Below, in pieces: positions 9,652-46,411 of a stretch of 64,000 bases of DNA. Under the pieces are notes generated by a model. The model made no database searches. It saw only the letters and a list, made by a program, of their open reading frames with translations, and was not told where the DNA came from. Position 1 is the first letter of the stretch. Every line of letters begins with the position of its first letter. The position numbers were made by a program, and so were the translations under genes. The DNA comes from Streptomyces celluloflavus (GTDB lineage Bacteria; Actinomycetota; Actinomycetes; Streptomycetales; Streptomycetaceae), in contig JOEL01000001.1 of assembly GCA_000720995.1 (NCBI GenBank), positions 62,001-126,000 of the forward strand, read 5' to 3'.

Positions 9652-9676
9652 GGAGCGTGTACCGGCCGCGGAGTCC

Positions 9677-10288: not shown

Positions 10289-11403
10289 CGGGTTCCTCCG
10301 GGGCGGATCGGTCGGCCAGGTGGGCGGTGATGGCGTGCGGGACCCCCGCGACGGGCGGGGTCCACTGTGATGGTCGGGGGCCACCGAGACGGACGGGGCC
10401 ACCGCGATACCGAGACGCATGGTGCCCGTGTGCCGTACGTGGCGCCGTCGGTGAACGGAAACCCCGCGGCCACGGCGGGACGGGGTCGGCGGAGGCGATC
10501 AGCCGGAACCCGACGCCGGTGGCGACGGCGAGCGAGCACACTCCCGCCGCCCGCTCGGGGTGCGGTGCCGCTCCGATGCCGCACGGAGGCCGACGCCGTG
10601 GCTTCGGCGGCACCCGCCGAGGTCTGCGCGGCGGCCCGTACGCCGTGCCACCACCGGGACCGCTGCCGCCTCATGAGCCCATGATCCCGCACGGTTGCCG
10701 GGCCGATGGCGGGCGGGTGAGTCGGGTCCGGCGAACGGAGCGGAGCGCGCGGGTGGCGAACGCGTTACGTCACACGAAGCCGGTTCGCTGCCGACGAGCC
10801 CGGAACCGCCCCGGGACACCGCAACCTTGGCCGACCCCTGCCGCGCCCCGGACACGGCAAACGAGAACGCAGGCCGCACAGGTGGACGGCACCGGAGCGC
10901 GAACCGCAAGCCCACGACGACACCAGCGATCGATTTCGGCCGCATCACCAACTGACGGAGACCCGCGCGCCACCGCTTCGACGCGCCGGGACAGGACCGT
11001 TTCTCCTGCCGGGGGACGATCTGGAGACGGCCCATCGGGCGCCCTGATCCCGGCATCGGCACCCGACGGCTTCCGGCCTGCGCGCCCGGTGGCGGACTGC
11101 CTCGCGTACTCCCCGCCCGGCATCAACTCCCGTATGCAGCAACAGACTTACGGCGCTGGAGACGCGCCCGTGTCCTGGGTGGCGCCTCCCGTGGCACCTC
11201 GGCCCTGCCGCTGTGCCGCCCCGGACCGTGACCCGGGCGAGCAAGAGCTGGTCAGGCGGGGTGAACGCGCCAGGCGGAGGTGTCCCGCCCGGCTGCCGCA
11301 CCGGTGGAAGGACGGGACGGTCAGTCCGTCCGGCGGTCGCGCTCAGCCGGAGGTCCGGACGGTCGGTGGCGGGGGCGCCGCCCGGCGCATCGTGCCGGGG
11401 CCG
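10289..11403. other. gene-poor stretch, 1.1 kb
   Basis: Between the methyltransferase start and the F420-type oxidoreductase stop. Several GC-rich frames stay open by chance, but none has a ribosome site plus a protein I recognise. It may hold decayed coding sequence; nothing can be supported. Confidence 0.4.
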
Positions 11404-20781: not shown

Positions 20782-22287
20782 GTGAAGAACAGCAGGGAGA
20801 TCATGGAGATCCTTGAGGCATACGACCTCACGGGGAGTTACCGAGCGGCGGCCGAACTGGCCGGCTGCGACCACCACACGGTGGCCCGGTATGTGCAGGC
20901 TCGGGCCGAGGGCAAGAGCCCAACCGAGCGGCAGCACCGGGCCCGCCCGATCGACGAGTACCTCGCAAAGATCGAGGAGTTGGTGGTGAACTCCCACGGC
21001 CGGATCCGTGCCGATGTCGTGCACCGGCGGATCACGGCGATGGGCTTCACGGGCGGGGAAAGGACCACCCGGCGGGTGGTCGCGGAGGTCAAGGCGAGCC
21101 TGCGGGCCGGATCGCGGCGGGTCTATCGGCCGTGGATCACCGAGCCCGGTTTGTGGCTGCAGTGGGACTGGGGCGAGGGCCCGCGGATCGGTGGACGCCG
21201 TACTTCTTTGTGGTGCGCATGGCTGGCCTGGTCGCGTTTCCGCGTCGTCATTCCAGTGTTCGACAAGACCCTGCCGACGATCGTGGCCTGCCTGGACGCC
21301 ACCCTGCGGCGAATAGGAGGGGTGCCGGCCTATGCGCTGACCGACAACGAGAAGACGGTCACCACGATGCACGTCGCGAACATCGCGGTCCGCAACCCGG
21401 AGATCGTCGAGGTCGCCCGGCACTACGGGCTGACAATCCGTACTTGCCTGCCGGCCGACCCGGAAACCAAGGGCGGATCCGAGGCCACCGTCCGTATTGC
21501 GAAGGCCGACCTGGTGCCCACCGACGCCAATCTGCTCGAGCAGTACGGGTCGTTCGGACACTTGGAGGCGGCCTGCCGCGACTTCTGCGACGAGATCAAC
21601 AACCGGGTTCACCGGGCCAGTCGGCGCAAGCCCGCCGAGGCCCTGGCCGAGGAACGGCAGCGGCTGCATCCGCTGCCGAAGGAGCCGTTCGCCGTCGCGT
21701 TCGGCACCACGAGACGGGTGAACTGGGACGCCACGATCTCCGTTGAAGGAGTGCGGTATTCGGTCCCGCACCAGCTGGTCGACACCCGAGTCTGGGCCCG
21801 CTTCAACGGCGACGAGCTGATCGTCACCGCGGTCGGCGAGGACGGCCCGGCCGAGGTCGCCCGGCACGACCGCTCGACCCCCGGCAGCCCGCAGATCAAG
21901 GACGAGCACTACCCGCCCAGGGAGGACAAGGAGGGCGACCGGACACCGAAGGCGAACTCGGCCGAGGAGGCGGCCTTCCTCGCGCTCGGTCCCGGGGCGG
22001 CGTCCTGGCTGATCGAGGCCGGGGCGGCCGGAGCCCGCAGAATCAAGCCGAAGATGGCCGAGGCGGTCGCGCTGGCCAAGCTGCACTCCGCCGCCGACGT
22101 CGACCGGGCCCTGGGTTCTGCGGCGATCGCCGGACGGTTCGCGGAGAACGACCTGATCCGCATCCTCACCTACCAAGTCGGCCTGGAAACAGTCGAACCC
22201 ACACGGCCTTCCGAAGATCACAGCCTGCAGCCAGGCACCTCCGCCTGGTCCAACTTCGGCCTCGCCAATGAGAAGGAAGAGCACTGA
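20782..22287 (+). CDS. istA: IS21-family transposase IstA
   Basis: A 501-residue DDE transposase. The N-terminus has a helix-turn-helix (GSYRAAAELAGCDHHTVARY, residues 18-37) for binding the end repeats. The catalytic core shows Asp in WLQWDWGEGP, Asp in ALTDNEKTV and Glu in ETKGGSEATVR. The C-terminal beta-barrel region begins around TRRVNWDATISVEGVRYSV. GTG start at 20782. The stop overlaps the istB ATG by one base (TGATG), the usual IS21 coupling. Length and motifs are complete, so the element may be active. Confidence 0.95.
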   Translation: MKNSREIMEILEAYDLTGSYRAAAELAGCDHHTVARYVQARAEGKSPTERQHRARPIDEYLAKIEELVVNSHGRIRADVVHRRITAMGFTGGERTTRRVVAEVKASLRAGSRRVYRPWITEPGLWLQWDWGEGPRIGGRRTSLWCAWLAWSRFRVVIPVFDKTLPTIVACLDATLRRIGGVPAYALTDNEKTVTTMHVANIAVRNPEIVEVARHYGLTIRTCLPADPETKGGSEATVRIAKADLVPTDANLLEQYGSFGHLEAACRDFCDEINNRVHRASRRKPAEALAEERQRLHPLPKEPFAVAFGTTRRVNWDATISVEGVRYSVPHQLVDTRVWARFNGDELIVTAVGEDGPAEVARHDRSTPGSPQIKDEHYPPREDKEGDRTPKANSAEEAAFLALGPGAASWLIEAGAAGARRIKPKMAEAVALAKLHSAADVDRALGSAAIAGRFAENDLIRILTYQVGLETVEPTRPSEDHSLQPGTSAWSNFGLANEKEEH

Positions 22288-23078
22288 TGGCCACCCCGAT
22301 CCGCACCGTCACCGGCACCCACGGCGACCCCCTCACCGAGGCCATCGAGCTGACCAAGCGGCTGAAACTCCCGCACATCCGGCGGGCGTTGACCGACCTG
22401 ATCCCCACCGCGAAGGCCCAACGCTGGGACCCCGCCGAGGTCGTCCGCGTCCTTCTCTCCGAGGAGGCCGCAGGCCGAGACGCCGCGAACCTCCGCACCC
22501 GCCGCAAGCGAGCCGGGTTCCCGGCCGGAAAGACCTTCGGCGACTGGGACGAGACCGCCTCCTCGATTCCACGGCCGACTCAGGACTCGCTGAAGATGCT
22601 CGAGTGGGTCACCCGCAAGGAGAATCTTTGCATCTGCGGGCCCTCCGGCACGGGCAAGAGCCACTTCACCGAGGCCCTGGGCCAGGCTGCCATCGAGGCC
22701 GGCATGACGGTCGCCTGGTTCACCATCGAAGACCTCGGAGCCCTCGTCCGCCGCCACCGGGCCGACGACTCGCTGGCCAGAGCGATGGCCCGGCTGATCC
22801 GAACCGACCTGATCATCGTCGACGACATCGGCCTGCTGCCGGTGTCGCCCGATGCCGCCGAGGGGTTCTACCGGCTGGTCGATGCCGCATATGAACGACG
22901 GGCGCTGGCCGTCTCGAGCAACCTCCACCCGTCAGGCTTCGACGAGATCATGCCCAAGACCCTGGCCACCGCGACCGTCGATCGGCTCCTGCACCACGCT
23001 CACGTCGTGGTCACCCAGGGTGATTCCTTCCGGCTCAACCAAGCCACCAGCGGTCAGGGGGTGATCCCCTTGCGCTGA
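22287..23078 (+). CDS. istB: IS21-family helper ATPase IstB
   Basis: A 263-residue AAA+ ATPase related to DnaC. Walker A is GPSGTGKSHF, Walker B LIIVDDIGLL, and the sensor region SSNLHPSGFDEI follows. IstB forms oligomers on target DNA and delivers it to the IstA-donor complex. Its ATG shares a base with the istA stop, so it is translationally coupled. The gene ends 16 bp before the right-end repeat cluster begins. Confidence 0.95.
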   Translation: MATPIRTVTGTHGDPLTEAIELTKRLKLPHIRRALTDLIPTAKAQRWDPAEVVRVLLSEEAAGRDAANLRTRRKRAGFPAGKTFGDWDETASSIPRPTQDSLKMLEWVTRKENLCICGPSGTGKSHFTEALGQAAIEAGMTVAWFTIEDLGALVRRHRADDSLARAMARLIRTDLIIVDDIGLLPVSPDAAEGFYRLVDAAYERRALAVSSNLHPSGFDEIMPKTLATATVDRLLHHAHVVVTQGDSFRLNQATSGQGVIPLR

Positions 23079-25698: not shown

Positions 25699-26424
25699 TC
25701 ATGTGTCGGAGGCGGCCAGCGAGGGGGGTCTGACGACGACGTAAGCCTGTCCCTGCGCGGCGCAGAACCCCGTTGTCTGCTGGGCGAGATGTTGGGAGAC
25801 AGGAGTTCTCGTGTGGTACAGGAGCACCGAGGTGGAGACGCCGAAGATGCTCGGAGAATCCACGAAGAGCGGGGCTTCGGCCTTGAGGTAACTCAGTCCC
25901 GCGTGCACTTGCTCCGCAGTGACGTCGCTGCCGCCGCCCGGCCGGTGCTGGACGATCTCATGCACCATGGTTTCGCAGATCGAGGAGAACTCCTCGTCCT
26001 CTTCGATGGCCCGATCCGTCTGCTTTTCCACGGTTCGGTAGATTGGCAGCTCCATGATTTCGGAGAGGGCCCGGACGCGGAATCGTGCGGCTTCGGGGCC
26101 CAGCCTCTCCAGTGCCCGCCGGATTCTGCGCCGTACGTCCTTCAGTGTGGCTTTCACCGACCGTACGGCGCTTTCCGGGACACGGCCGTCCGCGATGAGC
26201 ATCGAGTCTATATGGGTGTCGACGTATACGACATCGACTTTGGCGAAAGAATCTTCCGCCCACTCCATCAAGGCGGTAAGGCGGTCCTGGTTGAAATAGC
26301 CATTTCCTGCACTTACGCCTATGAGTGCATGCTCGCCGCGCTGCCAGATGAGCCGGCTTCTGTCGCTGAGCGGCTCGACGTACATTTTGCTGTCTGGCGT
26401 CGTTAAGAGCGGATAGGACTGCAT
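25699..26424 (-). CDS. albC: tRNA-dependent cyclodipeptide synthase (AlbC type)
   Basis: A 241-residue cyclodipeptide synthase, the same length as AlbC of Streptomyces noursei. It uses two aminoacyl-tRNAs to make a 2,5-diketopiperazine. The nucleophile Ser38 sits in LIGVSAGNGYF; Tyr179 and Glu183 in LSYLKAEAPLF and Tyr203 in VLLYHT correspond to AlbC Tyr178, Glu182 and Tyr202. L34, G36, L120 and L186 align with the pocket I remember for the first, Phe-preferring site of AlbC, so cyclo(Phe-Leu)-type products are expected. It is third in the albABC operon, 22 bp after albB, with AAGGAAG before the ATG. Codon 7 is the rare TTA (26404-26406), suggesting bldA control. Confidence 0.93.
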   Translation of the reverse strand: MQSYPLLTTPDSKMYVEPLSDRSRLIWQRGEHALIGVSAGNGYFNQDRLTALMEWAEDSFAKVDVVYVDTHIDSMLIADGRVPESAVRSVKATLKDVRRRIRRALERLGPEAARFRVRALSEIMELPIYRTVEKQTDRAIEEDEEFSSICETMVHEIVQHRPGGGSDVTAEQVHAGLSYLKAEAPLFVDSPSIFGVSTSVLLYHTRTPVSQHLAQQTTGFCAAQGQAYVVVRPPSLAASDT

Positions 26425-26446
26425 GGCGGATATTCTTCCTTTCCTT

Positions 26447-27829
<1,383 letters not shown>

Positions 27830-28464
27830 GCTGGTGAGGCCGGAGACCGGCCTGCGCCACGGTGCCACGACACCGATCCCGACGGGCCGAAATTCGGCCT
27901 CCGGCCAGCCCGGCGTACGGCCATCGATCCTGGTGCGCGAATCGGCTCGCCGGCCTGGACGGTCGCCGCGGCGGTCGGGCTCGCGGCGGTACTCCAGCGG
28001 TGGGATGCGGCGTTCACCGTCGTACGGTCGGCCGGTGCGGCCTACCTGCTACCGCTGGACGCGTAGGCGCTCTGGACCCACCAGCGGTCGGGTGCGGTCG
28101 CCGAGTCCGGGGATGTGCCCTCGGCGGCGGAGGCACCGGACCGCTCCGCCACGCGCCTGGGGTCGGTACGCGCCTTCCGGCAGGGGCTGTTGAGCTGCCT
28201 GCTCGAACCCAAAGTCGGCACCCTTTCCGTGGCGGTGGTGCCGCAGTTCCTGCCCGAGGGGTACTCGGTCCCGGGTCGGCGCTCTCCCTGGGGGCGGTCG
28301 ATGCCGTCATCGCGGCGGGCTGGCTGCTGCTGGTCGTCGTCTGCGTCGGTCGACTCCTGGAGCGGCTGCGGGGTCCCCACCTACACCGCGACTTGGAGCG
28401 TACGACGGGCGGGGCGCTCGTCGTGCTCGGGGTGGGGACGGCGACAGAGACAGTCGCGGGCTAG
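27830..28464 (+). pseudogene. LysE/RhtB-family exporter relic
   Basis: Three membrane blocks typical of this exporter family can be read: SPAWTVAAAVGLAAVL and FTVVRSAGAAYLL, then an in-frame TAG at about 28064, then FRQGLLSCLLEPKVGTLSVA in the same frame. After a frameshift near 28275 comes GAVDAVIAAGWLLLVVVCVG to the natural stop. The N-terminal membrane segment is not readable. One nonsense codon plus at least one indel make it non-functional. Confidence 0.75.
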
Positions 28465-35356: not shown

Positions 35357-38329
35357 GTGGAGTTTCCGCGCGTCGAGTTCAAGGTATTGGGACCTCTGGA
35401 GGCAGTTTCCGGCGGTCGGGTCCTCCCGCTCGGCGGACCGAAGCAGCGGACGCTGCTCGCCGCACTGCTGCTCCACGTCAACACCACGGTGTCCGGGGAC
35501 CGGCTGTGCGATGCGGTCTGGGGCACGACCCCGCCGGCCTCGGCCCAGGCCAACGTCCGCAGCTATGCCGCCGCGTTGCGCCGGGTGCTCAACCCGGACG
35601 CGGGAGAGGACCGGTTGAGCCTGGGGCACGGCGGCTACCAACTGCGGGCGCGACCGGACGAAGTGGACCTGCACCGGTTCGAGGAGCTGGTCGAGCGCGG
35701 CCGGTCCGCCCTGGCCGGGGGTGCGCACCCGGCGGCGGCCGGCCATTTCCGGGAGGCGCTGGACCTGTGGCGCGGCGGTGCCTTCGAAGGGGTGGCGCAC
35801 CACGACGCCCTGCACATCGAGGTCGCCCGCCTCGACGAGGCGCGGCTCGCGGTGTTCGAGGACTATGCCGAGGCGCGTCTGGCGCTCGGCGACAGCCGCG
35901 AGATGGTGGGCCCACTGCGGGAGCAGGTGGCCCGGTACCCGCTGCGCGAGTCGCTCTGGGGAAAGCTGATGACCGCGCAGTACCGCTGCCACCGCCCGGG
36001 AGACGCGTTGCAGTCCTACGCCCTCGCCCGTACCGCACTCCGGGACGAGCTGGGACTCGAACCGGGCGCCGAACTCCGCCGGTTGCACCGCGCGGTCCTG
36101 GGCGGGGACCCGGCCCTGCTGGGCACCGCCCCCGCACCTGCCACCGTCCCCGCGCCCGTCCCCGTGCCGTCCGACCGGCCCGCGGGCGCCTGGCGGCCGG
36201 TGAGTCAACTCCCCTCGGATCCCGCCGACTTCGTCGGCCGCGACGAGGTGCTGACCCGGGCCGCCGCCTTACTCCGGCCGGCCGCCACCGCGCCGGGCGC
36301 CCCGCCGCCCGTGCCCGGATCGCCCTGCGCCGTACCGGTCGTGATCCTCACCGGGCTCCCCGGCGTCGGCAAGACCACCCTGGCCACCCGGCTCGCTCAC
36401 CTGCTGCGCAAGTCCTTCCCCGACGGCCAGTTGTTCCTGCACCTGGGCGGCGCCCGGCGCGCGCCCGGCGCGGTCCTCGCGGACCTACTGCTCGGGCTGG
36501 GCGTCGCGGGCGCGTCCATACCCGAGTCGACGGTGGACCGCGCCGCGCTGTTCCGTTCGCTGCTGTCCGGCCGCAAGGTGGTGGTGCTGCTCGACGACGC
36601 CCAGGACGAGGCCCAGATCCGCCCGCTGCTGCCCGGGACCCCGGGGTGCGCGGCCCTGGTCACCAGCCGGGCCCGGCTGGCCGGGCTGGCCGCCGCCCAC
36701 CTGATAGACGTCGCCCCGTTCGACGCCGGTGAATCGGAGGCCCTGCTGCGGCGCATCGCCGGCGGCCGGCGGCTCGCGGCGGAACCGGAGGCGACCGAGC
36801 GGGTGCTGGCCGGCTGCGCCGGTCTGCCGCTGGCGCTGCGGGTGATCGGGGCGAGACTCGCGAGCCGCCCGCACTGGCGGGTCGGGCGGCTCGCGGACCG
36901 GCTCGCCGACGAACAGGGCCGGTTGGCGGAGCTCACGGTGGGCGACCTCGCCGTCCGGACCTGTGTCGCCACCAGCTACCGCAGTCTGACCCCCGACGCC
37001 GCCCGCGCCTTCCGGGCCATCGGCACCCTTCCCGCACCGGAGTTCCCGGGCTGGGCCCTGGCCGCCCTGCTGGACTCCGGCGACACCGACGACACGATCG
37101 ACGTCCTGCTCGACGCGAACCTGGTGCAGGTCGTCGGCGTCGACGACCAGGGCCAGCCGCGCTATCGGATGCACGATCTGCTGCACGTCTACGCCACGGA
37201 ACGGGCGTTGGCCGAGGAACCCCGGCCCTGGCGGCGGGCGGCACTGGCCCGGGTCCTGACCGGCTGGCTCTGCCGGGTGCGGGCGGCGGGCGACCAGCTC
37301 GTCCGCGGCGGGACGGACGACCGCGCGGGCGATCTCGTCGGACGGCTGGAGGGCGAGCGGACGAGTCTGGTCACCGCGGTCGAGTTCGCCGCGGGGGCCG
37401 GATACGGCACCCACGCGGCCGACCTCGCCGCCGCCTTGGAGGACATCTGCCACCTGCGCAACTGGTGGGACGAGTGGGACCGGGTGGCGCGCGCCGCACT
37501 CGACTGCGCCAGAGCAGACGGCGACCTCGTCGCCGCCGCGGTCGCCCAGGGCTCCCTGGCCAGGGCCCTGGCCGCCCGCGGCCGGGTGGACGACGCGCTG
37601 ACCCGCTTCACCACGGCCATCGACCAGCTGGACGAGCTGGGCGAGGCACATCACGCCGCCCGGCTGCGGATCCACCGGAGCTTCGCGATCGCCGACCGCG
37701 GTATGGCCGGACTCGCCCACGACGACGCCGCCGCGGCCGCCGCCGTGATGGGCCGGCTCGGTGACGAACACGGCCGGGTCCTCGCCCTGCGCAGCCTCGG
37801 CTTCGCCCTGCTGTGCCAGCAGCGCGCGGCCGAGGCCATCGCCACCCTGGAACCGGCCCTGGAGACGGCGGAGCGACTCGGCCGGCCGCTCGCGCTCGCC
37901 GACGTCCTCCAGGCGCTGGCCGTGGCCGAGATCGGCCACGGCCGGCTGGGCCGGGCCGCCCGCCGCCTGCCGCGGGCGCTGACCCTGTTCCGGACGGTCC
38001 GGCACCGCCCCGGCGAGGCGTACGCACTGCTGACCCTGGGGCGGCTGTACAACGAGCTCGGTCCCGACCGGGCCTCGCGCGCGCTCGGCCCGCTCGGCGA
38101 GGCGGCGGAGATCTTCGCCGAGCTGGGGGAGCACCGCGGCGCGGCCTTCGCCTCCTACTGGCTGGGCAGGACCCACACCGCGCTGGGCGACGCCGACCGA
38201 GGCCGGCGCCACCTCACCGAGGCACTGGCCGGCTTCCGCAGTCTGCGCATGCCGTTCTGGGCCGACCGCGCCGAGCGGGAGACCGGCGGCCCCGCACGGG
38301 TCGGCACCCCGCCCGGACGCCCTTCCTGA
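35357..38329 (+). CDS. AfsR/SARP-family pathway regulator
   Basis: A 990-residue large SARP. Winged helix of the OmpR type at about residues 1-95 (VEFKVLGPLEAVSGGR, then ANVRSYAAALRRVLN), the bacterial transcriptional activation domain to about 245, NB-ARC ATPase with P-loop GLPGVGKTT near 332-341, and C-terminal TPR-like helices from about 680. Such proteins activate antibiotic clusters, and the isonitrile operon starts 135 bp downstream. Codon 305 is TTA (36269-36271), which makes translation depend on the bldA tRNA. I chose GTG 35357, preceded by AAGGCGG, over an upstream ATG because the SARP fold begins there. Confidence 0.9.
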   Translation: MEFPRVEFKVLGPLEAVSGGRVLPLGGPKQRTLLAALLLHVNTTVSGDRLCDAVWGTTPPASAQANVRSYAAALRRVLNPDAGEDRLSLGHGGYQLRARPDEVDLHRFEELVERGRSALAGGAHPAAAGHFREALDLWRGGAFEGVAHHDALHIEVARLDEARLAVFEDYAEARLALGDSREMVGPLREQVARYPLRESLWGKLMTAQYRCHRPGDALQSYALARTALRDELGLEPGAELRRLHRAVLGGDPALLGTAPAPATVPAPVPVPSDRPAGAWRPVSQLPSDPADFVGRDEVLTRAAALLRPAATAPGAPPPVPGSPCAVPVVILTGLPGVGKTTLATRLAHLLRKSFPDGQLFLHLGGARRAPGAVLADLLLGLGVAGASIPESTVDRAALFRSLLSGRKVVVLLDDAQDEAQIRPLLPGTPGCAALVTSRARLAGLAAAHLIDVAPFDAGESEALLRRIAGGRRLAAEPEATERVLAGCAGLPLALRVIGARLASRPHWRVGRLADRLADEQGRLAELTVGDLAVRTCVATSYRSLTPDAARAFRAIGTLPAPEFPGWALAALLDSGDTDDTIDVLLDANLVQVVGVDDQGQPRYRMHDLLHVYATERALAEEPRPWRRAALARVLTGWLCRVRAAGDQLVRGGTDDRAGDLVGRLEGERTSLVTAVEFAAGAGYGTHAADLAAALEDICHLRNWWDEWDRVARAALDCARADGDLVAAAVAQGSLARALAARGRVDDALTRFTTAIDQLDELGEAHHAARLRIHRSFAIADRGMAGLAHDDAAAAAAVMGRLGDEHGRVLALRSLGFALLCQQRAAEAIATLEPALETAERLGRPLALADVLQALAVAEIGHGRLGRAARRLPRALTLFRTVRHRPGEAYALLTLGRLYNELGPDRASRALGPLGEAAEIFAELGEHRGAAFASYWLGRTHTALGDADRGRRHLTEALAGFRSLRMPFWADRAERETGGPARVGTPPGRPS

Positions 38330-38464
38330 CGCCCCTGCCGAGGCTCTTCCCGGGGCTCTTTCCGACGCGCCGCCGACCGCGGGAGCCGGGCAGTTGTGCG
38401 CTCTCTGTGCGTTTCCCATGCGCCCGCGGACCACGGTGGGACCCAGTCAACGAAAGGAGACGCG

Positions 38465-39466
38465 GTGTCCGATCTCGCCGTACCCGATACCGAACTGGCC
38501 GCCGTCGAAGTGCTCCGGGAGGTCCTGGCCCATCAGCGCAGAATGCGCGAGGGCGGGTGCACCGGAGAAGTCTGCCCGCGCTGCGTGGGACACCACCTGG
38601 ACGCGGTGCGCGACGCCATGGCGAGCGGCCGGCGCATCGAGTTCGTCCTGCCGGCGTTCCCGACGAAGTCCCCGAACCCGGCCAAGGTGCTCGGCCCGCT
38701 GCCCGACCTCGCCGAGGAACTCGCACTGCGTTTCCTCAACTCGCTCTGCGAGCGGATCGGCGAAATCTACCCGCCCGGAGCCGCCATCCTGATCTGCTCC
38801 GACGGACGGGTCTTCAACGACCTGCTCGGGGTGAGCGACGAGAACGTCACCGGCTATGTGCGGGCCCTCGACGACATGATCACCAGGATGGGCGCCACCC
38901 ACCTCGAACAGTTCACCCTCGACAAGGTCTACCGGGGCGCCGGACACACGGACATGCGCACCATGCTGTCCACCGGCCACGCCCCGGAGATCGAGGAGCT
39001 GCGCGAGGAGGTACGGGCCGGCGGCGCGCCCCTCGCCATGTACCGGGGCATCACCCGCTTCATGCTGGAGGACCTGTCCGGTCCGCACTACACCGGCACC
39101 CGGTCCGCCCTGCAGCGCGAGTGCCGCCGCCTCGCCTACCGCGTCATCCAGCGGAGCCGGGCCTGGGGCGACCTGCTGGGCCAACTCTTCCCGGCCGCCA
39201 TCCGGCTGTCGATCCACCCCCAGCCGTGCGGGACGGAGAAGATCGGCATCCTGCTCGCGGACACCCCGGACGCCTGGCTGACGCCCTGGCACAGCGTCGC
39301 GGTCGAATCCGGCGGACGTTTCACGCTGATGAAGCGCGCCGACGCCGAGCGTGCCGGAGCCGAACCGGTGCACGTGGCGGGGCGCCCCAGCCACTACGTA
39401 CTGGCGCCGGACGCGGCCCGGCCCGGCCCCGCGCCCCACGAGCCGGGGCACCGGCCCCGCGCGTGA
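38465..39466 (+). CDS. pvcA: isonitrile (isocyanide) synthase, PvcA/DIT1 family
   Basis: A 333-residue member of the DIT1/PvcA family. These enzymes convert the amino group of L-Tyr or L-Trp to an isonitrile, taking the carbon from ribulose 5-phosphate. Diagnostic blocks are FVLPAFPTKSPNPAKVLG, LPDLAEELALRFL, ILICSDGRVFNDLLGVSD, TLDKVY and LSIHPQPCGTEKIGI. Tyr is the more likely substrate because an HpaB-type phenol hydroxylase follows. The GTG at 38465 has AAAGGAG 6 nt upstream. It is the first gene of a seven-gene operon under the adjacent SARP. Confidence 0.93.
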   Translation: MSDLAVPDTELAAVEVLREVLAHQRRMREGGCTGEVCPRCVGHHLDAVRDAMASGRRIEFVLPAFPTKSPNPAKVLGPLPDLAEELALRFLNSLCERIGEIYPPGAAILICSDGRVFNDLLGVSDENVTGYVRALDDMITRMGATHLEQFTLDKVYRGAGHTDMRTMLSTGHAPEIEELREEVRAGGAPLAMYRGITRFMLEDLSGPHYTGTRSALQRECRRLAYRVIQRSRAWGDLLGQLFPAAIRLSIHPQPCGTEKIGILLADTPDAWLTPWHSVAVESGGRFTLMKRADAERAGAEPVHVAGRPSHYVLAPDAARPGPAPHEPGHRPRA

Positions 39467-39574
39467 ACACCGCCGTCCGCCTCGCCGCCGAGACCGTGCC
39501 CGACGGAGCCCGCCGCCCGCCCGGCCGGGCCCGCGTACCGGGCGAACCCACCCTCACCACCCCTGGAGAACACC

Positions 39575-40435
39575 ATGACCGATGACCACGACCACCTCGC
39601 CGGCAGCCGGCTCGACGTCACACGGATCGAACCCTTCGGGGCGGCGGTACGGGCGCCGGAGCCGGGCGCGCACGTCCGCGACGTCCCCGTCGAAACCCTG
39701 CGCGCGCTCGTCCGGGAGCACCGTCTCGTCCTGCTCCGCGGCTTCGACAACTTCGCCGGTCCGCAGGAACTGTCCGCCTACTGCGAGCGCTGGGGCGAGC
39801 TGAGCGTCTGGCCGTTCGGCACGGTGCTCGAACTGGTCGAGCAGGAACGGCCCGCGGACCACATCTTCGACCACAGCTATATGCCGATGCACTGGGACGG
39901 CATGTACCGCGAGCAGGTGCCGGAATTCCAGGTGTTCCAGTGCGTACGGGCACCCGGCGCGGGCAACGGCGGTGAGACGACCTTCTCCCACACCACCGCC
40001 GTGCTCGAACACACCGACCCGGCCACGGTCGCCCAGTGGTCGGCGGTCACCGGTACCTACCACCGCGCGATGGAGTTCTACGACAGCGTCACCGTCTCGC
40101 CGCTCGTGGCCGCCCACCCAGGCCACGGCGCCCAGGTCATCCGCTACAACGAACCCACCGCCGCAGAGGACAGCGGCTTCGTCAACCACCCCGACCTCCA
40201 GTTCTCGGGGCTCCCGGACGACGCGCTCGCCGAGGTGCACCGGAGCCTGCGCGCGGCGCTGTACGATCCCGCGCACCTCTACGCCCACACCTGGCAGACC
40301 GGCGATCTGGTGATCGCCGACAACTACACGCTGCTGCACGGCCGGAACGCGTTCACCAGCGGCGCGCCGCGGCATCTGCGCCGGGTCCAGGTGCTCGGCA
40401 CCCCGCCGCTGGACAACCCGGGGCTGGTGCGATGA
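39575..40435 (+). CDS. pvcB: Fe(II)/2-oxoglutarate-dependent oxygenase, PvcB type
   Basis: A 286-residue TauD/TfdA-fold oxygenase. The iron triad is His106-x-Asp108 (MHWDGMYRE) and His255 (LLHGRNAF); Arg269 or Arg270 near the C-terminus should bind 2-oxoglutarate. PvcB homologues act on tyrosine isonitrile, either desaturating with loss of CO2 to a vinyl isonitrile or desaturating while keeping the carboxylate, as in paerucumarin. The sequence alone does not tell which. GGAG precedes the ATG. The stop overlaps the next start (ATGA), so it is coupled to the hydroxylase. Confidence 0.9.
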   Translation: MTDDHDHLAGSRLDVTRIEPFGAAVRAPEPGAHVRDVPVETLRALVREHRLVLLRGFDNFAGPQELSAYCERWGELSVWPFGTVLELVEQERPADHIFDHSYMPMHWDGMYREQVPEFQVFQCVRAPGAGNGGETTFSHTTAVLEHTDPATVAQWSAVTGTYHRAMEFYDSVTVSPLVAAHPGHGAQVIRYNEPTAAEDSGFVNHPDLQFSGLPDDALAEVHRSLRAALYDPAHLYAHTWQTGDLVIADNYTLLHGRNAFTSGAPRHLRRVQVLGTPPLDNPGLVR

Positions 40436-41979
40436 CCGGCACCGCACCCACGGCCGGCGGCACCACGACCGTGACCGGCAACGCGCTCATGACGGGCGCG
40501 GACTACCTGGAGAGCCTGCGCGACGGCCGGCAGGTGTACGTGGACGGCGAACGGGTGAAGGACGTCACCCGGCACCCCGCCTTCCGCAACTCCGCCCTGT
40601 CGGTGTCCCGGCTCTACGACGCCCTGCACGACCCGGCGACCGCCGAGGTGCTCACCGGGGTCGACGACTCCGGCATCCGTACCCACAAGTTCTTCAAACC
40701 GAGCCGGACCGCCGCGGAACTGGTCGAGGCACGGGAGGCGATCGCCACCTGGGCGCGCATGAGCTACGGCTTCCTGGGGCGCACCCCCGAGTACAAGGCG
40801 TCCTTCATGTCGGGCCTGGGCGTCAACGCCGACTACTACGGCCCGTACGCCGCCAACGCCACCGCCTGGTACCGCGAGTTCGCGAGCCGGGCGCTGTACC
40901 TCAACCACGTCATCATCAACCCGCCGGTCGACCGCAAACGGGCCATCCACGACATGGAGGACGTGTTCGTGCACGCCGTGCGCGAGACGGACGCCGGAGT
41001 GGTGGTCAGCGGGGCGAAGATGCTCGCGACCGGCTCCGCCCTCACCAACGCCGGTTTCGTCGCCCCGGTCGGCTCGGCCGCCCTGGCACCGGGCAAGGCG
41101 GAGGCGTTCGCCCTGGTCTTCTTCGTCCGGATGGACAACCCCGGGGTGAGACTGATCTGCCGCACCCCGTACGCGAACCCCGCCCGCGGCCCCTTCGACG
41201 CACCGCTGAGCAGCCGTTTCGACGAGAACGACAGTGTGCTGCTGCTCGACGAGGCGCTGATCCCCTGGGAGGACGTGCTCGTCCACCGGGACATCGAACG
41301 GGCGACGGGCTTCTACGCCACGTCGGGCTTCCCGAACCTGTACAACTTCCAGTCCGGAACCCGGCTGAGCGTCAAGCTGGAACTCATGGCCGGACTGCTC
41401 GCCCGCGGCACCCGGGCGAACGGCACCGACGGGTTCCGCGGCGTACAGGCCGCCGTCGGCGAGCTCATCACCATGCGGGACATGGTGTGGGCGCTGACCT
41501 CGGCGATGGCGTACGACCCCGAGCCGGGCAGCGGCGGGACCGTCGTGCCCCGCCTGGAGCACGCCTCGGCCATGCGGATGTACAACGCGCAGGTGTGGGA
41601 CCGGGTCCACGAACTGTTCGAGACCACGCTGGGCGGCGCACCCCTCGCGGTGCCCTCCAGCGGCCGGGATCTCACCCATCCCGAACTGCGGCCGCTGATC
41701 GACCGCTTCTACCGCGGCGCGGACACCTCCGCCGCCGACCGGATCAAGCTGCTCAAGCTCGTCTGGGACGCGATCGGCACCGAATTCGGCGGCCGCCACG
41801 AACTGTACGAACGCAACTACTCGGGCAACGGCGAACAGGTCCGGCTCGACGCCCTGAAGTGGGCGACCCGGCGGGGCAGCCTCGCCCGGTACGAAGCGCT
41901 GGTGCAGGAGTGCCTCGACGACTACGACGTCGAGGGCTGGCGCAGAGGCCCGTGGCAGGACCCGGCGCACACCCTCTGA
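40432..41979 (+). CDS. hpaB: 4-hydroxyphenylacetate 3-monooxygenase-type hydroxylase (HpaB/PvcC)
   Basis: A 515-residue oxygenase of the two-component FADH2-using HpaB family, full length. Visible blocks include LTGADYLESLRDGRQVYVDG-like N-terminal sequence, MSYGFLGRTPEYKASFMSGL and ETDAGVVVSGAKMLATGSAL. It should hydroxylate a phenol ortho to the OH, giving a catechol. In the paerucumarin pathway PvcC, of the same family, does this to the isonitrile intermediate. The reduced flavin is probably supplied by the HpaC-type reductase at the operon's end. It overlaps pvcB by 4 nt. Confidence 0.92.
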   Translation: MTGTAPTAGGTTTVTGNALMTGADYLESLRDGRQVYVDGERVKDVTRHPAFRNSALSVSRLYDALHDPATAEVLTGVDDSGIRTHKFFKPSRTAAELVEAREAIATWARMSYGFLGRTPEYKASFMSGLGVNADYYGPYAANATAWYREFASRALYLNHVIINPPVDRKRAIHDMEDVFVHAVRETDAGVVVSGAKMLATGSALTNAGFVAPVGSAALAPGKAEAFALVFFVRMDNPGVRLICRTPYANPARGPFDAPLSSRFDENDSVLLLDEALIPWEDVLVHRDIERATGFYATSGFPNLYNFQSGTRLSVKLELMAGLLARGTRANGTDGFRGVQAAVGELITMRDMVWALTSAMAYDPEPGSGGTVVPRLEHASAMRMYNAQVWDRVHELFETTLGGAPLAVPSSGRDLTHPELRPLIDRFYRGADTSAADRIKLLKLVWDAIGTEFGGRHELYERNYSGNGEQVRLDALKWATRRGSLARYEALVQECLDDYDVEGWRRGPWQDPAHTL

Positions 41980-42009
41980 AACGCCCACCGACCGAGAACG
42001 GAGCACATG

Positions 42010-43896
42010 ATGTGTGGCATCACCGGGTGGGTCGACTTCACCCGAGACCTCACGGACGAGTACCCGCTCGTCCACGCCATGACCGAGACCCTGACCGCCA
42101 GAGGGCCGGACGCCGGCGGTGTCTGGCTGGACGGACACGTCGCGCTGGGACACCGGCGGCTGGCCGTCATCGACGTCGAGCACGGCACACAGCCGATGCG
42201 CACCCCGGAACGCGGCCCGGGGGACCTGCCGCGAGCGGTGATCTCCTACGGCGGGGAAATCTACAACTTCCGTGAACTCCGCGCCGAACTCGCCCTGCTC
42301 GGGCACCGGTTCACCACCCGCAGCGACACCGAGGTGGCCCTCCGCGCCTACCTGGAGTGGGGCGCCGGCTTCGTCCACCGCCTCAACGGCATGTACGCAC
42401 TCGCCATCTGGGACACCGCCCGGGACGAACTGCTGCTGGTGCGGGACCGGCTGGGCGTCAAACCCCTCTACTACCACCCCACGGCCGACGGCGTGCTCTT
42501 CGGCTCGGAGCCCAAGGCCATCCTCGCCCACCCCCTGGCACGGGCCGGCGCGGGAGCGGAGGAACTCTGCGACGCGCTGCTGTTCCTGCGCACCCCGGGG
42601 CGGGTGCCCTTCCGCGGTATGCGCGAGCTGAAACCCGGCCATCTGCTGCGGGTCCGCCGCGACGGGCTCAGCGAGGAGCGCTACTGGGCGCTGGAATCCC
42701 GTCCGCACACCGACGATCTGCCGACCACCGTCGCCACCGTCCGCGACCTGCTCGACGACATCGTCCCGCGGCAGATGGTCGCCGATGTGCCGCTGGTCTC
42801 GCTGCTGTCCGGCGGACTGGACTCCAGCACGGTCACCGCCCTCGCCCAGCGGGCGCGCGCCGCCGACGGCGGGCGCCTCACCACCTTCTCCGTCGACTTC
42901 ACCGGCCACACCGAGAACTTCCGGGCCGATCCCATCCGCCCCACCCCGGACGGCCCGTACGCGCTGGAGGTCGCCCGGCACGTCGGCAGCGACCACCACG
43001 CGATCGTCCTCGACCGCACCCGGCTGCTCGACCCGGCCGTCCGCCGGACCGTCCTCGGCGCCTGGGACCTGCCGTTCAACTTCGCGGACCTCGACGTCTC
43101 CCTGTACCTGCTCTTCGCCGCCGTCCGGGAGCACGCGACCGTGGCGCTCTCCGGGGAGGGCGCCGACGAGATCTTCGGCGGCTACCTGTGGTTCTCCGAC
43201 CCCGATGCGCGGCGCGCCGACACCTTCCCCTGGCTCAAACTCGGCGCCCACCGCGGCCTCGACCCCCGCTCGCTCTTCCACCCCTGGTTCGTCGACGGGA
43301 TCGACCTGGGGGAGTACGAGGCCGACCTCTACCGCACCGCGCTGGCCGAGGTACCGCGCCTCGACGGGGAGAGCGCGCAGGACCGGCGGACCCGGGAGCT
43401 GGGCTATCTGACCCTGACCCGGTGGCTGCCCATCCTGCTGGACAAGAAGGACCGGATGGGCATGGCCAGCGGACTGGAGGGCCGGGTGCCGTTCTGCGAC
43501 CACCGCCTGGTCGAGTACGTCTTCAACGTCCCCTGGGAGATGAAGACCTTCAGCGGCCAGGAAAAGGCACTGCTGCGCGAGGCCGCGACCGGTCTGCTGC
43601 CCGAGTCGGTACGGCGCCGCAAGAAGGCCGCCTACCCCTCGATCCAGGACCCCGCCTACGACCGCGCCCTCATCACCGGCCTCACCACGGCGGCGGGCGA
43701 CGCCGGCGCACCGCTGAGCCACTGCCTCGACGGCGCCGCGGTACGGCGGCTCACCGGCAGGACCACCACCGGCAGCCTCTCCGAGTTCGAACGGATCCTC
43801 GTGGAGTCCACCGTCCGGCTGGACGAGTGGCTGCGCACCTACCAGGTCGAGTTGGACACCGGTGCCCTCGGCGCCGCCTGGCCGCGAACAGCCTGA
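42010..43896 (+). CDS. asnB: class B asparagine synthetase-type amidotransferase
   Basis: A 628-residue glutamine-dependent amidotransferase. Starting at ATG 42010 rather than the adjoining ATG 42007 makes Cys2 the N-terminal nucleophile of the glutaminase domain (MCGITGWVDF), with GGEIYNFREL and SDTEVAL behind it. The synthetase domain has the PP-loop SLLSGGLDSSTV and SGEGADEIFGGY. Both active sites look intact. In biosynthetic clusters such enzymes turn a carboxylate into an amide through an acyl-adenylate. Here the acid could be a ring-cleavage or isonitrile intermediate. CGGAG lies 6 nt upstream; 30 bp separate it from the hydroxylase. Confidence 0.9.
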   Translation: MCGITGWVDFTRDLTDEYPLVHAMTETLTARGPDAGGVWLDGHVALGHRRLAVIDVEHGTQPMRTPERGPGDLPRAVISYGGEIYNFRELRAELALLGHRFTTRSDTEVALRAYLEWGAGFVHRLNGMYALAIWDTARDELLLVRDRLGVKPLYYHPTADGVLFGSEPKAILAHPLARAGAGAEELCDALLFLRTPGRVPFRGMRELKPGHLLRVRRDGLSEERYWALESRPHTDDLPTTVATVRDLLDDIVPRQMVADVPLVSLLSGGLDSSTVTALAQRARAADGGRLTTFSVDFTGHTENFRADPIRPTPDGPYALEVARHVGSDHHAIVLDRTRLLDPAVRRTVLGAWDLPFNFADLDVSLYLLFAAVREHATVALSGEGADEIFGGYLWFSDPDARRADTFPWLKLGAHRGLDPRSLFHPWFVDGIDLGEYEADLYRTALAEVPRLDGESAQDRRTRELGYLTLTRWLPILLDKKDRMGMASGLEGRVPFCDHRLVEYVFNVPWEMKTFSGQEKALLREAATGLLPESVRRRKKAAYPSIQDPAYDRALITGLTTAAGDAGAPLSHCLDGAAVRRLTGRTTTGSLSEFERILVESTVRLDEWLRTYQVELDTGALGAAWPRTA

Positions 43897-43944
43897 AGTG
43901 TCCCTGCCGACGGAACCCACAGCACCGATGAACGGAGACCACTG

Positions 43945-44916
43945 ATGCACGCCATCGAGATCCGCCGGACCGGCGGACCCGAGGTCCAGACGTATGGGGA
44001 GAAGCCCGACCCCGAGCCCGGCGAGGGGCAGATACTCGTCGAACTCGCCGCGGCCGGGGTCAACTTCATCGACCTCTACCGCCGCGAGGGCCGCTATCCC
44101 CTGCCGCTGCCCGCCGTACCGGGCGAGGAGGGATCGGGCGTCGTCCTGGCCACCGGCCCCGGAGTCAGCCGGTTCGCGCCCGGTGACCGCGTCGCCTGGA
44201 CGACCGTCCTCGGCAGCTACGCGAGCCGGGTGGTGGTGCCCGAGGACAAGGCGATCGCCGTACCGGACACGATCGACCTGCGCACGGCCGGCGGGGTGCT
44301 CGTCCAGGGCATGACGGCCCACTACCTGGTCAACGACTCCTACCCGGCGCGCGCCGGCGACACCGTACTGGTCCATGCCGCCGCCGGCGGGGTGGGGCTG
44401 CTGCTCACCCAGTTGCTCAAGCGGCGCGGCGTCCGGGTCATCGGCACGGTGTCCACCGCGGAGAAGGAGAAGCTCGCCCGGGAGCACGGCGCCGACGAGA
44501 TCATCCGCTCCACCGGGACCGGCGACCTGGCCGCCGAGGTACGCCTTCTCACCGGCGGGGAGGGCGTCCATGCGGTCTACGACGGCATCGGCGCCGCCAC
44601 TTTCGACGCCAGTCTCGACGCCCTGCGCACCCGCGGCACGCTGGTCCTCTTCGGCGGCGCCAGCGGCGCGGTGCCGCCCGTCGATGTGATGCGGCTGCTG
44701 TGGGGCGGGTCGCTGACCCTGACGCGCCCCTACCTCGAACACTTCCGGGCCACCACCGAGGAGTTCGAGTGGCGGGCGGGCGAGGTGTTCGCCGGTATCG
44801 CCGACGGCACCCTGCGCGTCACCATCGGCGGCACGTATCCGCTCGCCGAAGCGCACCGCGCGCACGCCGACCTCGCGGCCCGGCGCACCACCGGCAAGCT
44901 CCTGCTCGTCCCGTAG
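43945..44916 (+). CDS. quinone oxidoreductase-type zinc-free alcohol dehydrogenase superfamily enzyme
   Basis: A 323-residue medium-chain reductase of the QOR group. PGEEGSGVV and GMTAHYLVNDSYPARAGDTV are typical, VLVHAAAGGVGLLLTQL is the NADPH-binding fingerprint and GTLVLFGGASGAVPP follows. No structural-zinc cysteines are present, as expected for QOR. These enzymes reduce quinones or conjugated enones with NADPH. In this operon an alpha,beta-unsaturated product of catechol cleavage is the obvious candidate substrate (inference). CGGAG precedes the ATG; spacing to asnB is 48 bp. Confidence 0.88.
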   Translation: MHAIEIRRTGGPEVQTYGEKPDPEPGEGQILVELAAAGVNFIDLYRREGRYPLPLPAVPGEEGSGVVLATGPGVSRFAPGDRVAWTTVLGSYASRVVVPEDKAIAVPDTIDLRTAGGVLVQGMTAHYLVNDSYPARAGDTVLVHAAAGGVGLLLTQLLKRRGVRVIGTVSTAEKEKLAREHGADEIIRSTGTGDLAAEVRLLTGGEGVHAVYDGIGAATFDASLDALRTRGTLVLFGGASGAVPPVDVMRLLWGGSLTLTRPYLEHFRATTEEFEWRAGEVFAGIADGTLRVTIGGTYPLAEAHRAHADLAARRTTGKLLLVP

Positions 44917-44944
44917 CCCCCCCGACCACGAAGGAGGTTCCCCC

Positions 44945-45835
44945 ATGGGTGACATCGTCGGCGCGGGCCTGGTCTCGCACGCACCCGTCATCATGTTCCC
45001 CGAGCCGCGGCGGATCGAGGCGAACGGCGGCCGCGACTTCACCCTCGCGACCGGCCTGACCCGGCTCCGGCACGAGGTGATCGACCCGGCGCAGTACGAC
45101 ACCGTCCTGGTACTCGACAGCCACTGGGCGACGACAACCGAGGTGGTGGTCACCGCCCACTCCCGGCGCACGGGCCGCTTCACCTCGGACGAGATGCCCA
45201 GCGAGATCAGCGGGCTGCCCTACGATCTGCCCGGCGACCCCGAACTGGCCCGCGCCGTCGCGGAATCGGGGGCGGGGCGGTCGCTGTGGATCACCGCGAA
45301 CGACGACCCGTACCTGCCGGTCCACTACGCGACGCTCAACCTCTGGACCTACCTCGGCCGGGCCGGCACCCCGTGGGTCTCCGTCTCGGTCTGCCAGACG
45401 GCGACCACCGAGGACTTCCTGGCCGTCGGCGAGGCCATCGCGGACGCGGTCACCCGGCTCGACCGCAGGGTGCTGCTGCTCGCCTCGGGCGGCCTCTCCC
45501 ACGTCTTCTGGCCGCTGGCCGAACTCCGCGACCACATGGCGGGGGACCCCGGCCATATCGTCACGCCCGAGGCCCGCGCGGCGGACGAGCGGCGGATCGC
45601 CTGGCTGGAGGCGGGCCGCCACGACCGCGTGATCGAGGCCATGCCGGAGTACCTCCGGTTCGCCCCCGAGGCGCGCTTCGGGCACTACCTGATGCTGGCG
45701 GGCGCGGTGGGCGGCGCCCGGTGCGGTGCGCCGGGCCGTCGCTTCGGCGCGTACGAGAACGGGATCGGGACCGGCCAGGTCCACCTCTGGTTCGACCGGC
45801 CCGCAACCGGCTGGCAGGACGGACCGACCCGCTAG
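44945..45835 (+). CDS. LigB-type (class III) extradiol ring-cleaving dioxygenase
   Basis: A 296-residue non-haem Fe(II) dioxygenase of the LigB/HpcB family. Probable iron ligands are His12 (GLVSHAPVIMF), His60 (VLDSHWATT) and Glu242 (APEARFGHY); His186 in ASGGLSHVF would be the acid/base residue. It should open a catechol ring next to, not between, the hydroxyls, giving a hydroxymuconic semialdehyde. The catechol made by the HpaB-type enzyme of the same operon is the expected substrate, as in 3,4-dihydroxyphenylacetate or DOPA cleavage. AGGAGG precedes the ATG; 28 bp follow the reductase gene. Confidence 0.88.
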   Translation: MGDIVGAGLVSHAPVIMFPEPRRIEANGGRDFTLATGLTRLRHEVIDPAQYDTVLVLDSHWATTTEVVVTAHSRRTGRFTSDEMPSEISGLPYDLPGDPELARAVAESGAGRSLWITANDDPYLPVHYATLNLWTYLGRAGTPWVSVSVCQTATTEDFLAVGEAIADAVTRLDRRVLLLASGGLSHVFWPLAELRDHMAGDPGHIVTPEARAADERRIAWLEAGRHDRVIEAMPEYLRFAPEARFGHYLMLAGAVGGARCGAPGRRFGAYENGIGTGQVHLWFDRPATGWQDGPTR

Positions 45836-45904
45836 AGCGCCGATCGAAGGACCCCGGAGGAAGCGCAAAGCACCGGGGAATCAGTGGGAACCAGGAGGAC
45901 CCCC

Positions 45905-46411
45905 GTGGATATCGACCGACGGTCGCTGCGCACCTGCCTCGGCCACTTCGCCACCGGCGTCACGGTCGTCACCTGCGAGGTGGGCGGGGCGCCGCACGGC
46001 GCCACCGTCAACGCCTTCACCGCGGTGTCACTGGACCCGGCGCTGGTGCTGGTCTCGCTCCACCGCGAGAGCACGGCCGGCCGCCACCTCGGTGGCCGGC
46101 CGTTCACGGTGAACGTACTCCGCGAGGATCAGGACGCTCTCGCCCGGCACTTCGCGGGCCACCGGACCACGGCCCCGCCGCCCCGGTGGACGCGCTCGGC
46201 AGCCGGCCTCGCACCGCGGCTCGCCGACGCGCTGGCCACCGTCGAGTGCTCGCCCTGGGCCGAGTACGACGGGGGAGACCATGTGCTCTTCCTCGGCCGG
46301 GTCGAGGCGTTCGACCACCGGGGCGGCGGCCGGCCGCTGGTGTTCTACCGGGGGGAGTTCCCCCGCCTCGCACCGCTGCCCGCCCTCGCCACCGGGGACC
46401 CCACGCACTGA
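45905..46411 (+). CDS. hpaC: flavin reductase (HpaC type)
   Basis: A 168-residue flavin reductase-like split-barrel protein. LGHFATGVTVVTCEVGGAPH, TVNAFTAVSLDPALVLVSL and a Gly-rich GRPFTVNVL segment are the family blocks. It reduces FMN or FAD with NAD(P)H and should feed the HpaB-type oxygenase of the same operon. The GTG at 45905 has AGGAGG about 7 nt upstream. It is the last operon gene; a strong hairpin follows. Confidence 0.9.
   Translation: MDIDRRSLRTCLGHFATGVTVVTCEVGGAPHGATVNAFTAVSLDPALVLVSLHRESTAGRHLGGRPFTVNVLREDQDALARHFAGHRTTAPPPRWTRSAAGLAPRLADALATVECSPWAEYDGGDHVLFLGRVEAFDHRGGGRPLVFYRGEFPRLAPLPALATGDPTH

Follow-up and report, generated by a model that had tools for sequence, protein, structure and literature searches.

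A SARP-led Streptomyces operon predicted to make a ring-opened vinyl isonitrile from tyrosine

We analysed a stretch of 64,000 nucleotides of a Streptomyces genome (8.68 Mb, 193 contigs), namely positions 62001–126000 of contig C1; this whole stretch is referred to as the window. Between positions 35357 and 46411 its + strand carries the genes of SARP, PvcA, PvcB, HpaB, AsnB, QOR, LigB and HpaC, in this order. We propose, with a probability of about 0.6, that they form a dedicated SARP-led operon for a tyrosine-derived vinyl isonitrile, which would be ring-opened (or re-closed) and would bear a carboxamide. The gene content and order, their conservation, a repeat element before pvcA, and the active-site and diagnostic residues are read directly from the sequences. 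Every named gene is matched by its own Pfam family above the curated cut-off; these + strand matches bear out the initial annotation, which had named the genes, on one strand, with a large SARP in front. Its central claim, that isonitrile synthesis is joined here to an extradiol enzyme with a SARP in front, is also supported.

Conservation of the gene order

LigB was used as the query over genome contigs and the best 80 of 223 relatives were examined. Twenty of those best 80 loci carry the cluster (L033–L051 and L053; L039 and L043 are cut by contig ends), and the remaining 60 have no PvcA, PvcB, HpaB or AsnB within the stretch examined around LigB. The six-gene order PvcA–PvcB–HpaB–AsnB–QOR–LigB is complete in 21 loci, the window, L115 and L119 included; the pairwise identical genomes (G258/L035, G060/L042, G241/L053 and G045/L045) were each counted once, and the order was checked a second time in four of the genomes. 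Nineteen of the complete loci are actinobacterial: 18 are Streptomyces by title or genus and L038 is titled Streptosporangium nondiastaticum. The other two are metagenome-assembled genomes (MAGs), with taxonomy taken from their titles: Gammaproteobacteria (L050) and Cyanobacteria (L051). The GC content (46–52% in L050, 64–70% in L051) separates L050, not L051, from Streptomyces. Compared with the window, pvcA of the two MAGs is 44–48% identical and pvcB 56–57%; within the stretch examined, neither shows a match to SARP or to HpaC. In both operons the genes of a short-chain dehydrogenase and an ATP-grasp protein follow instead (L050:10873–14005, with an MFS gene as well, and L051:10843–13978), which suggests additional tailoring or ligation of the product. 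The search for this gene order, which the initial annotation had recommended, found a recurrence beyond chance, since 21 loci have it and two of them are titled as other phyla.

SARP is found in front in 18 of the 21 complete clusters and HpaC behind in 14. Relatives of LigB are present in 91 of 392 sampled Streptomyces genomes (E 1e-20 or better), eight of them at 72–100% identity, own genome included; seven of these eight contain complete clusters and G018 a partial one. Concerning PvcB, two of 396 genomes match over the phylum, own one included (E 1e-40). Matches on plasmids are found in four of 72,556 records; the Burkholderia stagnalis record examined contains PvcA–PvcB, the other cluster genes being unmatched. 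On the downstream side, none of the predicted genes recurs in more than three other loci. In the 12 kb upstream of SARP, compared in eight loci (the window and seven others), genes are common only to the close relatives G060/G241; the exceptions are single matches at 32–36% identity.

Organisation and regulation of the operon

The SARP regulator is AfsR-like with BTAD, NB-ARC and TPR domains (35357..38329, + strand; Pfam BTAD 152 bits, NB-ARC 44; also matched in NCBIfam) and lies 135 bp before pvcA. The intergenic distances from PvcA to HpaC are 108, −4, 30, 48, 28 and 69 bp. The gaps of at most 108 bp between enzyme genes in the initial annotation are confirmed, but of its two start/stop overlaps only that of PvcB/HpaB (4 bp) exists in the window. 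The most likely start of pvcA is 38465, which is preceded by AAAGGAG; the alternative GTG at 38396 falls within the repeat element. The start of asnB was revised to 42010 (ATG TGT), so that the catalytic Cys stands right behind Met, and the start of hpaC was revised from the sequence to 45905.

Gaps were compared over 23 loci, with starts estimated by alignment; the PvcA–PvcB and LigB–HpaC gaps were left without a statistic, because several large negative values are artefacts of match ends. At the HpaB–AsnB junction, where the two halves meet, the distance lies between −13 and 53 bp for 22 of the 23 loci, the value of L048 being a measuring artefact. PvcB and HpaB overlap by four bases in 22 of 23 loci, and AsnB and QOR by one base in 16 of 23 (absent in the window, where the gap is 48 bp). 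The protein distances are correlated for all 15 gene pairs (r 0.87–0.98 over 21 loci, and 0.78–0.92 over 19 with the MAGs excluded); none of 1000 permutations reached any observed correlation. The trees of the first and second half have 10 of 18 splits in common.

A SARP-box-like element of three heptamers at 11-bp pitch (TTGTGCG-N4-CTGTGCG-N4-CCATGCG) is located at 38394..38422 on the + strand. In 19 of 22 loci the heptamer pair NNNTGCG-N4-NNNTGCG lies within the 160 bp that precede pvcA, versus 0.1 expected from mononucleotide shuffles; the last pair begins 59–61 bp before the pvcA start in 17 of these 19. It is absent from L046, where SARP is present, and from both MAGs, which have no SARP match; L048 has the pair and no SARP match. 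Over the entire window there are five copies of the pair pattern on the + strand (two of these are this element) and four on the − strand, and one copy of the triple. The element was also compared by alignment of four loci. Direct heptamer repeats at 11-bp pitch are typical SARP boxes, and we infer that SARP acts on the repeats before pvcA. The promoter scan gave no sigma-70-like site; the terminator scan gave none on the + strand inside the operon and two terminator-like sites in total, no more than shuffles give. SARP and the enzyme genes most likely belong to a single regulated pathway, because the six-gene order is conserved, the flanks are not, and the repeat element stands before pvcA.

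Isonitrile synthase and Fe/2-oxoglutarate enzyme

PvcA (38465..39466, + strand) matches Pfam DIT1_PvcA (PF05141) with 265 bits against a cut-off of 26.4, and residues 36–343 align with its best match in the PDB, the PvcA structure 3e59 (286 bits). The tyrosine-specific NCBIfam model TyIsonSynPvcA gives 308 bits (cut-off 600). Judged by these matches, tyrosine is the expected substrate of this isonitrile synthase.

PvcB (39575..40435, + strand; Pfam TauD 168 bits) is an Fe/2-oxoglutarate enzyme, which among solved structures scores 278 bits against Pseudomonas PvcB and 244 against PIsnB. According to Kim et al. 2022 (PMC9467999), vinyl-isonitrile enzymes that decarboxylate carry K or R at the position of PIsnB residue 107 and N or H at that of residue 188, and isocyanoacrylate-forming (PvcB-type) enzymes have L and C there. 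The window PvcB has Arg and Asn at these positions, which is the PIsnB type and not the isocyanoacrylate type (Leu, Cys). We aligned 32 PvcB sequences, 23 of them from cluster loci (L160 included), and all 23 have R with N (20) or R with H (3). Outside full clusters the residues are R and N in L129, L161 and L162, and A and A in L131, L166 and L167; L163–L165 have V and L, neither of the reported types, and LLHTR in place of LLHGR. The PIsnB-type residues predict that the tyrosine carboxylate should be lost and therefore that no coumarin should form. A paerucumarin-like coumarin was rejected as the likely product on these residues. The paerucumarin logic of the initial annotation thus appears not to apply, given R with N or H instead of L and C in 23 of 23 sequences, although the best overall score is with Pseudomonas PvcB. 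The expected product is 4-(2-isocyanovinyl)phenol, with the carboxylate gone.

Ring-cleavage enzyme

LigB (44945..45835, + strand) is an HpaD-like class III extradiol ring-cleavage dioxygenase (PF02900 75 bits, cut-off 26.3). Residues H12, H60, H186 and E242 are kept in all 24 cluster sequences and in all 60 other relatives; we take H12, H60 and E242 to be the metal ligands (two His and one Glu) and H186 the catalytic His. The cluster LigBs form their own clade (support 1.0), are 50–65% identical to the other relatives and have fixed differences, e.g. D154T, A183G, E198M and E257G.

Neighbour genes were scanned in two of the 60 non-cluster LigB loci. At L054 an aldehyde dehydrogenase gene and an FAA hydrolase gene stand on either side of LigB, and genes of glutamine synthetase and acetoacetate decarboxylase are close by; in L059 it is near a permease, glutamine synthetase, peptidase C26 and a reductase. 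Homologues of the L054 neighbours are common to other loci of the group (aldehyde dehydrogenase 53, FAA hydrolase 47). The cluster itself contains neither an aldehyde dehydrogenase nor an FAA hydrolase partner, and the matches to the L054 FAA hydrolase in the own genome are 29–39% identical.

Hydroxylase, amidotransferase and reductases

HpaB (40432..41979, + strand; Pfam HpaB_N 285 bits, HpaB 193; best PDB match 4oo2, 502 bits) is a flavin-dependent phenol hydroxylase, and HpaC (45905..46411, + strand; Flavin_Reduct 125 bits) is a flavin reductase and its presumed partner, so that all the two-component hydroxylase domains (HpaB_N, HpaB, Flavin_Reduct) are present at the locus. QOR (43945..44916, + strand; ADH_zinc_N 88 bits; best PDB match 4rvs, 334 bits) is a quinone/enone reductase of the zeta-crystallin type, which to judge by its relatives could reduce an enone, an enal or a quinone.

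AsnB (42010..43896, + strand) is a glutamine amidotransferase (Pfam Asn_synthase 294 bits; TIGR01536 481 bits, cut-off 267), and the Cys behind Met and the ATP motif SGGLDSS are found in 24 of 24 sequences. Its best PDB match is 7ylz (585 bits, versus 152 for E. coli AsnB), which is annotated as a hydroxyamidotransferase and which we identify as TsnB9 from the entry name and reference. By kinship AsnB is a member of the accessory amidotransferase family that includes the TsnB9 hydroxyamidotransferase. One study (PMC13418202) describes TsnB9 and a homologue as acting on free acids, the homologue activating free benzoic acid with ATP. The nitrogen donor of a hydroxyamidotransferase such as TsnB9 is glutamyl hydroxamate, a product of TsnB6/7. 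Among the genes of the conserved unit, the part of the genome searched, there is no candidate for a TsnB6/7-like oxygenase, and ammonia would therefore be the likelier donor for AsnB. The own genome also contains AsnB paralogues that are 58% and 55% identical.

Proposed pathway and alternative explanations

The chemical steps and their sequence, as inferred from the enzyme families, would be as follows. PvcA would convert the amino group of tyrosine to an isonitrile; PvcB would then desaturate the side chain with loss of CO2, giving 4-(2-isocyanovinyl)phenol, and HpaB, with reduced flavin from HpaC, would hydroxylate this to the catechol. LigB would cleave the catechol beside the hydroxyls, probably between C2 and C3 by its kinship with HpaD, to a semialdehyde of the 2-hydroxy-6-oxo-2,4-dienoic acid type. 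AsnB would activate the new carboxylate with ATP and add glutamine nitrogen to form the amide, and QOR would reduce a double bond or a quinone. The acid made by LigB would be the obvious substrate of AsnB, because the tyrosine carboxylate is predicted to be lost and AsnB needs a carboxylate. Ring-opened semialdehydes and ammonia close to picolinates; the product may be an open-chain amide, a seven-membered lactam, a pyridine carboxamide or a cyclopentenyl isonitrile. The initial annotation had suggested a ring-opened or a pyrone- or pyridine-like isonitrile, any of which may apply.

Several observations weigh against this proposal. Seven of the 21 complete clusters have no HpaC and three have no SARP match. 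The residue rule for PvcB is a correlation and a forecast, and single mutants of one enzyme kept their product, as reported in PMC9467999. LigB scores 109 bits on the HpaD equivalog model TIGR02298, below the cut-off of 316, and the position of cleavage cannot be read from its sequence. One AsnB paralogue of the own genome scores 646 bits on 7ylz, versus 585 for the cluster protein; because a paralogue in the same genome is closer to TsnB9, the acceptor of AsnB cannot be read from kinship. The family of this paralogue, found in 31 of 61 genomes with E-values of at most 1e-200, is multi-copy and unevenly distributed, and a hydroxamate product, considered on account of the TsnB9 match, was weakened as a candidate by these two findings. 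Common host ancestry alone would likewise correlate the protein distances, for which no species tree served as a control, and of the splits with support of at least 0.9 six are unique to the first-half tree and one to the second-half tree. Finally, two loci hold half of the cluster: L113 (G018) consists of AsnB–QOR–LigB with an FAD hydroxylase gene upstream and no pvc genes beside it, and L160 (G035) of SARP–PvcA–PvcB–HpaB followed by an AsnB stub only (residues 541–623).

These half clusters speak for reading the locus as two modules that are merely adjacent, a PvcA–PvcB–HpaB isonitrile unit and an AsnB–QOR–LigB–HpaC unit with its own product. Elsewhere in G018 a PvcA–PvcB–HpaB locus (L129; 54, 62 and 79% identity) occurs with an ABC transporter gene, which also favours it. 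However, the short HpaB–AsnB junction is kept even in both MAGs, the distances of the gene pairs correlate, and the hpaB–asnB gap has no room for another element like that before pvcA. The L160 stub looks like decay of a formerly complete cluster, and L113 may be a decayed cluster too, or else a portable module for ring opening. We therefore regard two modules as rather unlikely. The initial annotation had named separate transcripts with separate products as what would refute it; gene order, short gaps and correlated divergence largely speak against such a separation, with two genomes keeping one half only. A neighbouring explanation accepts one pathway in which PvcB keeps the carboxylate, as in a paerucumarin-like isocyanoacrylate, and AsnB amidates it, ring cleavage following or being a side branch. 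The higher score of Pseudomonas PvcB and the carboxylate that AsnB requires are in its favour, but both diagnostic positions are of the PIsnB type in every cluster locus, and we consider it unlikely.

Two further explanations concern the function of the ring cleavage and of the isonitrile. LigB may cleave the ring of a compound whose isonitrile is mainly a metal ligand; the product would then be a carrier of copper or iron, and AsnB and QOR would trim its scaffold. Such a role has a precedent in SF2768, a Streptomyces isonitrile that carries copper according to PMC5974471. Nevertheless, no conserved gene, metal-related or other, is seen beside the unit, and the scanned neighbours in the window are not metal genes, unlike those of the second PvcA locus of the genome; this makes the explanation quite improbable. 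A copper carrier was set aside as the leading proposal, there being no conserved neighbours. Alternatively, the ring-cleavage genes may serve detoxification or catabolism as an offshoot of homoprotocatechuate breakdown, as the L054 relative, flanked by aldehyde dehydrogenase and FAA hydrolase, and the many loci with such genes would allow. Given that both partners are missing from the cluster, that the genome offers only distant FAA hydrolase matches, that the cluster LigBs make up a clade of their own marked by D154T and E198M, and that a SARP stands in front, this is very improbable, and a catabolic operon was rejected on the missing partners.

The cluster may represent an undescribed class of natural products, for which we see an even balance of probabilities: tyrosine vinyl isonitriles that have their aromatic ring opened by an extradiol dioxygenase and the resulting acid amidated. 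Their six-gene core occurs in Streptomyces and in the two MAGs with titles of other phyla, and the class may be the bacterial counterpart of the ring-contracted isonitriles of Trichoderma. It appears that an isonitrile pathway has taken in a ring-destroying enzyme whose relatives belong to catabolism. With six enzymes the core is small; it was found in 19 actinobacterial genomes and has a candidate operator, so that it can be expressed and tested whole; L113 and L160, as complementary half clusters, are natural controls for a comparison of metabolites.

Neighbouring genes and other isonitrile loci

The upstream neighbours in the window (an M64 peptidase, an MFS-type gene of 285 aa and an AraC regulator) and the downstream ones (a Mut7-C RNase, a YdjM-like membrane protein and an ABC transporter) appear unrelated. 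An IS21-type transposase pair (rve/Mu-transpos_C_2 and IstB) is located at 20782–23078, about 12 kb upstream of SARP, and the GC content of 26001–28000 is 0.62, versus 0.70 in the adjoining 2-kb steps on both sides.

The same genome has a second isonitrile synthase locus, L120 (G000:C3:123501–143400), with PvcA at 9284–10456 on the − strand together with a P450, a Cucumopine_C domain protein and an FAD oxidoreductase. It is flanked by genes of a heavy-metal P-type ATPase, a PCuAC copper chaperone and periplasmic-binding/FecCD transport, and looks like a copper-linked isonitrile cluster, as far as its gene content tells. In relatives, L130 and L132–L137 are PvcA loci (46–52% identity) with no PvcB match. 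L161, L162, L163–L165 and L179 contain PvcA–PvcB pairs with no HpaB or AsnB match adjoining; a LysR regulator gene is near that of L161.

Comparison with known systems

The literature search found no description of the gene set or its product, within a scope that left out most subscription papers and the curated cluster collections; within that scope it agrees with the initial annotation, which knew of no natural product from this gene set. The terms isonitrile, extradiol, tyrosine and biosynthesis were not found together there, nor were isonitrile, PvcA, Streptomyces and extradiol dioxygenase, and isonitrile, Streptomyces, meta-cleavage and tyrosine co-occur only in an unrelated paper. The known PvcA/PvcB isonitriles, to our knowledge, keep the aromatic ring, whether bare, hydroxylated or cyclised.

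The paerucumarin operon pvcABCD of Pseudomonas aeruginosa likewise contains PvcA, PvcB and an HpaB-family hydroxylase (pvcC, presumably HpaB-like) in one operon. It differs in the PvcB residues and in that AsnB, QOR, LigB and SARP are extra here, and a coumarin is not expected from the present cluster. The rhabduscin/byelyankacin (PIsnB) pathways have in common with it the predicted decarboxylating Fe/2-oxoglutarate step on tyrosine isonitrile; their vinyl isonitriles keep the aromatic ring, whereas ring hydroxylation and extradiol cleavage should follow here. LigB resembles HpaD (homoprotocatechuate 2,3-dioxygenase) in family and active-site residues, but differs from the HpaD relatives in the sequence identity, clade and missing partners described above. 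TsnB9 of trichostatin A biosynthesis is of the same family as AsnB, but no TsnB6/7-like gene is in the conserved unit. Trichostatic acid belongs to the 2,4-dienoic acids, to which the predicted product of LigB would belong as well.

A likeness in the compound itself may be seen with the cyclopentenyl isonitriles of Trichoderma (dermadin, MR566A, isonitrins), which are fungal and are likened here by compound alone. These are derived from tyrosine via ring opening and re-closure. One of them, 3-(3'-isocyanocyclopent-2'-enylidene)propionic acid, which is listed in PMC9696559, is an isonitrile on eight carbons. By our mapping, these carbons would call for a distal (4,5) cut of the ring, and HpaD cuts at 2,3. 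The present cluster would offer a genetic model for the microbial opening of the tyrosine ring in isonitriles such as those of Trichoderma.

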